DNA of 64,000 nucleotides. It comes from Acidimicrobiales bacterium. GTDB taxonomy: Bacteria > Actinomycetota > Acidimicrobiia > Acidimicrobiales > Aldehydirespiratoraceae. Location of the stretch: positions 62,001 to 126,000 of the forward strand of contig JAVJSI010000011.1 of the NCBI GenBank assembly GCA_040219515.1, given 5' to 3'. Position numbers and translations under genes: made by a program. How positions within the stretch are numbered: position 1 is the stretch's first letter; each line of letters begins with the position of its first letter. The notes beneath the pieces were generated by a model, which was given only the letters and a program-made list of their open reading frames with translations, searched no databases and was not told where the DNA came from. Below, in pieces: positions 15,462 through 54,343 of the stretch.

Positions 15462-16103
15462 ATGGCCAAGCCCCGCACGCCCAAGGGTCGTGCTCGTCGC
15501 ACCAACGAACGGCTCACCCTCGAGTACCCGGACGCGGTCTGCGAGCTCGACCACCGCAATCCGTTCGAGCTGCTGGCCGCGACCATTCTCTCCGCGCAGG
15601 CCACCGATGTCGGGGTCAACAAGGCCACCCCGGGGCTCTTCGCTCGTTTCCCCGACCCGTGGTCGCTGGCCGAGGTCGAACCCGAGCAGGTCGAACCCTA
15701 CGTCGACACGATCGGCCTGTTCCGCCAGAAGTCGAAGAGCCTCGTGGGCATGGCCCGGATGCTGGTCGACGACTACGACGGCGAGGTCCCGTCGGCGATG
15801 AAGGATCTCGTGCGCCTCCCCGGTGTGGGCCGCAAGACGGCCAACGTCGTGCGCAGCGTGGCCCTCGGCAAACCCGGGTTGCCGGTCGACACCCACGTCA
15901 TCCGATTGTCGAACCTTTTGGGCATCACCACGGAGAGCGATGCCGTCAAGATCGAGCTCGAGCTCAACCCGATGGTGCCGGCGATGGAACGAGGCGAGTT
16001 CAGCCTGCGGATGATCCTCCACGGTCGACGTGTGTGCATCGCCCGCCGACCACGGTGCGAGGACTGTGTTCTGAACGACTTCTGTCCCTCCAGCCAGGTG
16101 TAG
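15462..16103 (+). CDS. nth: Endonuclease III
   Basis: Base-excision repair DNA glycosylase/AP lyase for oxidised pyrimidines, 213 residues. The helix-hairpin-helix is LVRLPGVGRKTANVV with catalytic Lys125, and Asp143 is in PVDTHVIRLS. The [4Fe-4S] cluster is C192-X6-C199-X2-C202-X5-C208 at the very C-terminus. Start chosen at ATG after the TAGTGT box. A candidate small RNA follows downstream. Confidence 0.95.
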   Translation: MAKPRTPKGRARRTNERLTLEYPDAVCELDHRNPFELLAATILSAQATDVGVNKATPGLFARFPDPWSLAEVEPEQVEPYVDTIGLFRQKSKSLVGMARMLVDDYDGEVPSAMKDLVRLPGVGRKTANVVRSVALGKPGLPVDTHVIRLSNLLGITTESDAVKIELELNPMVPAMERGEFSLRMILHGRRVCIARRPRCEDCVLNDFCPSSQV

Positions 16104-16157: not shown

Positions 16158-16163
16158 TATATT
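16158..16163 (+). promoter_or_regulatory. -10 box (TATATT) of the candidate sRNA
   Basis: TATATT is the most canonical -10-like hexamer noticed in this GC-rich window and no gene starts close behind it. It precedes the three-hairpin region by about 7-10 nt. No clear -35 is visible 16-18 bp upstream. Confidence 0.4.
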
Positions 16164-16169
16164 CGTGGA

Positions 16170-16272
16170 CAGCTGAGCGCAGGTCGCTCACGCAAGTCGA
16201 CGACATAAGGGATCCGCCGCCCTGTGTCGTCTGGTGGCCGCTCCCGTGCACGGGAGCGGCCACCGTCTTTTT
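16170..16272 (+). ncRNA. Candidate small RNA with three hairpins
   Basis: Three consecutive stem-loops fill the nth downstream region. Hairpin 1 is TGAGCG/CGCTCA (16174-16190). Hairpin 2 is GACGACA/TGTCGTC with an inner GGG/CCC (16199-16231). Hairpin 3 is a 14-bp GC-rich stem followed by a T-run (16233-16272), an intrinsic terminator. A TATATT box lies just upstream. Together this looks like an independent transcript of about 100 nt. I do not recognise a known family; a long nth 3' UTR is the alternative. Confidence 0.5.
16233..16272 (+). terminator. Intrinsic terminator, 14-bp stem
   Basis: A 32-bp perfect palindrome folds as a 14-bp GC-rich stem with a TGCA loop, followed by GTCTTTTT. It ends the candidate sRNA and any read-through from nth. 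Such a strong U-tract terminator was not noticed elsewhere in the window. Confidence 0.8.
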
Positions 16273-16359: not shown

Positions 16360-17052
16360 GTGCGTGAGCGAGCGGGGTACCGGGCGCAGGGGCGGCGATG
16401 GCGTCGCCAGGGGTTCGCTCTCACCCTCGTCGTCGCCGGCGCAGCGCTCTTCGTGTTGCTCGGAGGATGGGACTTCGTGCGCGACGGCGAACGCGTCGAG
16501 GAGTTCTTCACCGAGCGGGGTGCAGTGGGTCCGGTCGTCTTCGTGCTCGCGATGTGGGCGCTGCAACCGGCCGGGGTGCCCGGACTGGTCTTCATGGTGC
16601 CGGCGGCCGTGGTCTGGCCCCTGCCGACGGCGATGCTGTTGTCCTGGGTGGGAAACATGGGTGCGTCGTCGATCGCGTTCGCCATGGCCCGCTACCTGGC
16701 TCGCGACTGGGTGCAGCAGCGAATGCCCACTCGACTCAGGGGTTGGGATCGTCGCCTCGCCGACGGCGGTCTCGTGCAGGTCATCCTGCTGCGGGTGATC
16801 ACCGGGCAGTTCACGCCGGCGGACTGGGTACTGGGGGTGAGCACCGTCGGTGCCGGGACGTTCCTGGTCGGCACCGCGATCGGCATCATCCCCGGGATCG
16901 TCCTGGCCGTGACGCTCGGCGGCGGCATCATCGATCTGCTGGGCGAACGCTGGATGCGCGTCAGCGTCCTGGCCGCGGTCGTCGTCGCCCTCGGGATCAG
17001 GCGGGCGCGGCGAGCGCGTCGTGCTCGCGGTCTCGCACCGCCGATCGCGTGA
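16360..17052 (+). CDS. TVP38/TMEM64 (VTT domain) family membrane protein
   Basis: Integral membrane protein of 230 residues with the VTT/DedA-like arrangement. A first transmembrane helix (LTLVVAGAALFVLLGGW) is followed by a core with two re-entrant-type loops (VPGLVFMVPAAVVWPLP, GNMGASSIAFAMARYLARDW), then GQFTPADWVLG and a C-terminal helix and a very basic tail. Members are proposed lipid scramblases or transporters; the substrate here is unknown. GTG 16360 is chosen because the upstream frame extends through the terminator hairpin and cannot be coding. Confidence 0.78.
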   Translation: MRERAGYRAQGRRWRRQGFALTLVVAGAALFVLLGGWDFVRDGERVEEFFTERGAVGPVVFVLAMWALQPAGVPGLVFMVPAAVVWPLPTAMLLSWVGNMGASSIAFAMARYLARDWVQQRMPTRLRGWDRRLADGGLVQVILLRVITGQFTPADWVLGVSTVGAGTFLVGTAIGIIPGIVLAVTLGGGIIDLLGERWMRVSVLAAVVVALGIRRARRARRARGLAPPIA

Positions 17053-53206: not shown

Positions 53207-54343
53207 ATGGAACACAGTGACCCGCTGAAGCGGGCGACGGCGCCGCGAGAGCGCGGCGAGACCTGGGACGACGAGAAGTTCAAGCAGGCCCGCGAAGACG
53301 ATCTCCGCCAGCGCACTTCCGATTCTCGTTCGGCGGTCGTGGCGGCGCTCACCTGCCTGCTGCTCGCGACCCTCTTGACCTCGGGGAAGATCGTGGAGAT
53401 CGCCGAGCGTCAGGAGTTCGGCGACACCCGCGACCGGCAGTTGGCCGTTGCCGAGAACATCGACCGGGTGGCCAACTTCCTGTCGTTGAACCGTCCTTAC
53501 GACGCCATTCACGACGTCCGGGGCATCGGCGACGACGCTGCGGCGCGCATCGACAGCATCGACGACGTTGCCGATGACCTGGGCCTCGACGTGGTCGTGC
53601 CCGACATCGAGTCGCTCCCGGGTGACGACACCGAGGACACCGCCGACTCGGGAACGACGACGACCACGACCACCAGCACGACCGTGCCGGTCGTGCTACG
53701 TGAGGTCGACGCGTCGTCGCCGCTCACGGTGTTCGTCGGTGGCGACAGCCAGGCCGAGTACCTCGCCCAGGCCGTCACCACCGAATCCGACCTCGCCTTG
53801 CGCGTCGAGGCCCAGTTCGAGATCTCGACGAGCCTGGCCCGCCCCGACTACTTCAACTGGCCGGCCCGGCTTCGTGAGATCGACGAGGCGCAGGACCCCG
53901 AGGCCGTGGTCCTCTTCATCGGCGCGAACGATCATCAGGACATGTCCGCGGCTGACGGTACGCGGTTGGTCGAGGGATCGGTCGAGTGGCAGACAGAGTG
54001 GAGTCGCCGGCTCGCGATCACGTTCGACCTGCTCGAACGGCCGGGGCGTCACATCTTCTGGGTGACCCAGCCTCCGATGCGCGACGGTGATCTCAACACC
54101 GGTGTCGGCATCGTCAACGATCTCGCCGCTGCGGTGATCGCCGAACGCGATTTCGTGTCGGCCATCGACATCTGGCCCCTGTTCGGCGGTGATGCCGGCT
54201 TCTCCGCGCGCATTGTCGGTCCCGACGGCACCGACACCCGGGCCCGCATCGACGACGGTGTCCACCTGACCCGCGAGGCGTCCTCTTGGGTCGCCGACCT
54301 CGTCTTCGCCGAACTCACCCGCCTGTGGCAGTTCACCCCCTGA
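53207..54343 (+). CDS. Membrane-anchored SGNH/GDSL hydrolase-like protein (DUF459-type)
   Basis: 378 residues. A charged cytoplasmic N-terminus and one helix (AVVAALTCLLLATLLTSG) precede a helical region, an acidic stretch and a Thr-run linker near 150-160, then an SGNH domain with nucleophile Ser in VGGDSQAEYLA, Asn in FIGANDHQD and the Asp/His in DDGVHLTREA. It pairs with the MBOAT protein 29 bp upstream, resembling AlgI/AlgX or PatA/PatB systems in which the membrane protein exports acyl groups and the SGNH partner attaches them to extracellular glycans. Confidence 0.85.
   Translation: MEHSDPLKRATAPRERGETWDDEKFKQAREDDLRQRTSDSRSAVVAALTCLLLATLLTSGKIVEIAERQEFGDTRDRQLAVAENIDRVANFLSLNRPYDAIHDVRGIGDDAAARIDSIDDVADDLGLDVVVPDIESLPGDDTEDTADSGTTTTTTTSTTVPVVLREVDASSPLTVFVGGDSQAEYLAQAVTTESDLALRVEAQFEISTSLARPDYFNWPARLREIDEAQDPEAVVLFIGANDHQDMSAADGTRLVEGSVEWQTEWSRRLAITFDLLERPGRHIFWVTQPPMRDGDLNTGVGIVNDLAAAVIAERDFVSAIDIWPLFGGDAGFSARIVGPDGTDTRARIDDGVHLTREASSWVADLVFAELTRLWQFTP

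Follow-up and report, generated by a model that had tools for sequence, protein, structure and literature searches.

A candidate small regulatory RNA gene with CCGCC loops conserved among Acidimicrobiales

The window analysed here, a stretch of 64,000 nucleotides from an Acidimicrobiales genome, carries downstream of the nth gene a compact unit which an earlier note had proposed to be a novel small RNA. This locus raises the question whether the unit is a small RNA (sRNA) gene of its own or simply the 3′ end of the nth mRNA and, in the former case, how its RNA might act. The parts on which the proposal was based, namely the TATATT box, three hairpins with stems of 6 bp, 7+3 bp and 14 bp and a tract of five T, are all present at the places given, and the 3′ end of nth at 16103 and the position of the unit downstream of it were also correct (Table 1). 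The RNA itself probably begins near 16169, about 6 nt past TATATT, and TATATT would therefore be the promoter and lie outside the RNA. The gap between nth and the sRNA is about 66 nt, and a dedA-like gene on the same strand begins about 90 nt past the sRNA; within the order, this DedA/VTT-type gene is not a conserved neighbour of the sRNA.

Table 1. Coordinates of the features at the sRNA locus in the window
Feature	Position	Strand	Basis
nth (endonuclease III), upstream neighbour, outside the sRNA	15462..16103	+	ORF
−10 box TATATT, actinobacterial TANNNT type, putative sRNA promoter	16158..16163	+	sequence
sRNA gene, predicted transcript ~100 nt	16169..16272	+	covariance model; start from −10 spacing
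Hairpin 1, 6-bp GAGCG-type stem and 2 more pairs, loop CAGGU	16172..16193	+	fold
Hairpin 2, 7+3/4 bp, loop AUCCGCCG	16199..16231	+	fold
Hairpin 2 apex GGG-AUCCGCCG-CCC, near-invariant	16209-16222	+	fold and comparison of copies
Intrinsic terminator: stem, loop and T tract	16232..16272	+	fold, sequence, covarying pairs
Terminator stem, 14–15 bp, GUGC loop	16232-16265	+	fold
TTTTT tract after the terminator stem	16268-16272	+	sequence
DedA/VTT-type membrane protein gene, downstream neighbour	16360..17052	+	name read from the sequence alone

Conserved fold and distribution

The predicted fold is far stronger than expected from composition, with a minimum free energy of −65.1 kcal/mol compared with −41 ± 3.8 kcal/mol for dinucleotide shuffles (z −6.4), none of 200 shuffles reaching the same value. 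The earlier note had called such a structure unusual in this GC-rich window, and indeed a GC-corrected scan of 115-nt places ranks the sRNA at the top together with only one other place, a stretch of Thr-rich coding sequence at 53.7 kb. The very strong hairpins predicted there (53628-53790, − strand) lie within an ORF of 378 aa and arise from low-complexity Thr-rich coding with ACG/ACC repeats.

By comparing 108 distinct copies of the sRNA we found that the fold is maintained by compensatory changes, as expected of an independent, trans-encoded sRNA gene. A structure-blind MAFFT alignment (A1) already contains changes on both sides in 15 of 32 pairs, and in the order-wide alignments this holds for 29 of 32 pairs (8 of 9 in hairpin 1, 9 of 11 in hairpin 2 and 12 of 12 in the terminator). 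None of 500 shuffles gave an equally good covariation score, and the score collapses when the structures are slid along the alignment. In the alignment of the BLAST orthologues TATATT is conserved, and the letters of the terminator vary across the relatives whereas the pairing is kept. The fold is about equally strong on both strands of the unit, but the stems contain 94 G-U versus 20 A-C cells, and this excess supports the + strand as the RNA.

Clear orthologues were found by BLAST with a 191-nt query in the same family of genomes, and covariance models (R1, R2 and R3) were built from the alignments of the relatives. A covariance search, which the earlier note had proposed for the region downstream of nth, recovered the RNA across the Acidimicrobiales: with strict filters it was found in 69 of 298 genomes of the order and with laxer filters in 24 of 39 genomes sampled from its different families. 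As scoring was limited to the best candidates of each genome, both counts are lower bounds. The sRNA is single-copy in nearly all genomes, including the window genome, where it scores 97 bits; one bin (G078) carries two copies, which may reflect a paralogue or contamination. In the rest of the class a single genome of another order (G454) contains the sRNA, again beside nth, and a misplaced contig may be the source of this copy. In the phylum outside the order the covariance model gave no convincing match.

Most of the named genomes found in a scan with an exact pattern were MAGs of the Acidimicrobiales, among them Ilumatobacter and Candidatus Microthrix, and 59 of the 80 pattern loci that were fetched fit the model, whereas the off-taxon loci mostly do not. 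Pattern matches in Streptomyces, Nocardiopsis, Pseudomonas and others fail to fit the model and are due to chance, as are weak model matches beside 5S rRNA or other terminators; the locus from Herbidospora reaches 30 bits and is devoid of the motif layout. In three genera of the same family (g4, g5 and g6; L251-L256) the model finds nothing and there are no hairpins after nth, which is mostly followed directly by a hisD-like gene. These loci are natural empty sites with a clean absence of the sRNA. In the order sample, the sRNA was detected in none of the 6 genomes of at most 2.2 Mb versus 24 of the 33 larger ones (Fisher p 0.0015), the completeness of some of the six small genomes being low.

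From these comparisons we conclude that the unit is, with good support, a real and previously uncatalogued sRNA gene of about 100 bases which appears to be kept across most Acidimicrobiales families. The proposal of a novel sRNA thus holds up well, resting on the covariation, the fixed −10 box and the occurrence independent of nth (see below).

Loop motif and possible mode of action

The most conserved letters of the RNA form the apex of hairpin 2, where AUCCGCCG is flanked by GGG and CCC. The apical motif recurs in hairpin 1 (GGUUCCCGCCACC and GGGAUCCGCCGCC), and the apex of hairpin 1, GGUUCCCGCCACC, likewise belongs to the most conserved letters in the larger part of the order, with CCGCC in the loop of either hairpin. 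In the alignment of the BLAST orthologues the loop of hairpin 1 is CCGCCG and hairpin 2 contains GGGAUCCGCCGCCC; a UUCCCGCCA loop is present in most relatives. CCGCC is found in loop 2 of all 108 copies and in loop 1 of 103 of them, and while about half of the copies were gathered by an exact pattern containing CCGCC and are thus biased to the motif, the copies collected by model and by BLAST show the same pattern as the whole set. The copy in the window has lost CCGCC from loop 1 (16180-16184), which reads CAGGU, and the same is true for its nearest relative (L003) and for L015 and L109.

The RNA which this arrangement resembles most is the 6C RNA (RF01066), called B11 in mycobacteria and cgb_03605 in Corynebacterium glutamicum. 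B11 represses mRNAs by pairing of its C-rich loops with G tracts in their 5′ UTRs, and either of the two loops is enough for this effect (PMC10470900). As the two-loop arrangement of the new RNA repeats the logic of 6C/B11, we suggest that it is an independently transcribed, trans-encoded regulatory sRNA of the Acidimicrobiales that would act as an antisense RNA by its C-rich loops, with a probability of roughly 0.6. Transcription would start shortly after the TATATT box and stop at the terminator of the unit, so that a stable RNA of about 100 nt would be formed in which two stiff hairpins would display single-stranded C-rich loops with the common core CCGCC. These loops could pair with G-rich sites (GGCGG/GGYGGR type) of a limited number of mRNAs; like the pairing of the C-rich loops in 6C/B11, this would block translation or alter mRNA stability. 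In the window genome loop 2 would do the work because only this loop keeps the motif, and the loss of loop 1 fits the situation in B11, where either loop suffices.

C-rich-loop sRNAs with anti-Shine–Dalgarno sequences are also known from other phyla, for example the CcsR or "cuckoo" RNAs of alphaproteobacteria and the RsaE-type RNAs of firmicutes. Like the new RNA, these contain repeated hairpins which carry short C-rich loops and precede a terminator, but their core is CCUCC/UCCCC instead of CCGCC. A general anti-Shine–Dalgarno sRNA was considered and rejected: GGAGG, the Shine–Dalgarno motif of the hosts, is strongly enriched before predicted starts, whereas GGCGG, the complement of the loops, is not. 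In a rough test on samples of 400–464 kb, with starts taken from a simple home-made caller, GGCGG occurred 21 times in the predicted ribosome-binding regions of the window genome versus 20 and 24 times in control windows, and 23 times versus 23 and 18 times in a second carrier genome. General anti-Shine–Dalgarno action is therefore not supported.

The main rival to antisense action starts from the same independent sRNA and assumes that the repeated CCGCC hairpins serve an RNA-binding protein as a decoy or as a scaffold. The lack of enrichment of the complement at ribosome-binding sites speaks for this alternative, and so do the near-invariant loop and adjacent stem letters of hairpin 2 and the recurrence of the apical motif in hairpin 1; in addition, the stems close to both loops are more conserved in sequence than pairing alone would require, which is also compatible with recognition by a protein. 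On the contrary, there is no candidate protein, and an RNA with one motif copy left in the window genome and with loop 1 lost or changed in a few others would make a poor titration device. Thus, we consider protein binding to be considerably less probable than pairing with mRNAs. In broader terms, and with confidence somewhat short of even odds, the RNA may represent an order-wide core regulator, that is an sRNA family with a repeated, near-invariant CCGCC hairpin which acts on GGCGG-type sites or on an RNA-binding protein and was lost in streamlined lineages.

The near invariance of the loop, the loss of the loop 1 motif in the lineage of the window and the empty sites in the sister genera, the last two being natural variants, offer ready tests of the role of the loops. 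The locus defines a new family of structured RNAs, very strongly supported by covariation, in a large environmental order in which regulatory RNAs are apparently unstudied, and suggests that C-rich-loop sRNAs of actinobacteria are not confined to 6C.

Relation to the 6C RNA

The earlier note had not recognised a known family in the sequence, and in agreement with this a search of Rfam at gathering and at relaxed thresholds gave only chance matches, to perfect hairpins. A literature search of incomplete coverage found no description of this RNA and no described sRNA of the Acidimicrobiales.

Given the likeness, it could be argued that the RNA is a highly diverged member of 6C (B11) in which the C6 loops were traded for CCGCC loops. 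Both are actinobacterial intergenic sRNAs of about 100 nt with two C-rich-loop hairpins and an intrinsic terminator, and 6C sometimes lies in the wider neighbourhood of nth, at 9–16 kb in two of the four genomes examined. The two stem-loops of 6C carry loops of about six or more C each, as described (PMC4046766) and as also seen in the 6C sequences examined here; neither the RNA of the window nor its relatives contain such loops, and there are no runs of six or more C, but CCGCC instead. In addition, the second hairpin of 6C runs directly into the 3′ T run, whereas the new RNA has a separate third hairpin as terminator, and the new RNA is restricted to the Acidimicrobiales, save for the one match in the class. 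The RF01066 model had no match in the window, none at the locus in 61 relatives (E ≤ 10) and none in six carrier loci (E ≤ 1), and in the genomes examined 6C never adjoins nth. Model, loops and hairpin layout thus rule out 6C as the family of this RNA, and we regard even a strongly diverged descendant as improbable. In two actinobacteria (L244 and L250) the 6C gene is located about 9 and 16 kb from nth, and a shared ancient neighbourhood is possible.

Promoter, terminator and neighbouring genes

Using custom scripts and a simple gene caller we counted TANNNT and tabulated the neighbouring genes. In the 106 copies with sufficient upstream sequence, TANNNT occurs 86 times within the five positions from −13 to −9 relative to the model start and only 15 times at the remaining ~50 positions upstream. 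The unit therefore appears to have a promoter of its own, and it has its own terminator, as is typical for an independent sRNA gene. In the usual arrangement, seen in 82 copies, the sRNA follows nth on the same strand at a distance of 59–274 nt. In two cases (L074/L130 and L103), however, nth is convergent with the sRNA, and in 19 copies for which 1 kb or more of 5′ flank is available the locus is without nth; the latter include several species of genus g3, where the sRNA lies between a GNAT gene and the other neighbour of that gene. Of the 101 genes found to follow the sRNA, 57 lie on its strand and 44 on the other one, at very variable distance. As the sRNA also occurs in convergent orientation to nth, in loci devoid of nth and ahead of genes of either strand, it is neither the 3′ UTR of nth nor a leader.

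A mere terminator or 3′ UTR of nth, to which the same-strand copies and the short gap in the window would point, is in addition contradicted by the −10 box kept at a fixed place and by two conserved hairpins beyond what termination needs, and is very improbable. This was the outcome, together with lacking covariation, that the earlier note had itself held against an sRNA; in fact 29 of 32 pairs covary and nth is absent or convergent at some copies. A cis-acting leader or riboswitch of the downstream gene, dedA in the window, could be suspected from the same-strand gene following closely there, but no alternative anti-terminator pairing was seen and the opposite orientation and variable distance of the downstream gene elsewhere make it still less credible. 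Least credible of all is a protein-binding or recombination palindrome acting as DNA without any RNA: both strands fold about equally well, but G-U cells far outnumber A-C cells, the −10 box and the T tract lie on one strand only, and the element is single-copy in nearly all genomes. Since the −10 box, the orientations of the neighbours and the G-U excess act together, 3′ UTR, leader and DNA-only element are excluded for practical purposes. At the level of sequence comparison, the conservation of the predicted structure, the position of the putative promoter and the terminator, the transcribed strand and the independence from the neighbours are thereby established.

Two further observations concern these elements. 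In a high-GC group (L182, L113, L154, L119 and similar) hairpin 1 reads GGAACCGG...CCUGGUUCC, and past the terminator stem there is a weak T tract, GCGUUC/GCGUCC. Furthermore, in the G000 sample an excess of TAGCGT-like −10 boxes precedes the start codons of predicted genes by no more than 20 nt, which suggests that many mRNAs of this organism are leaderless.
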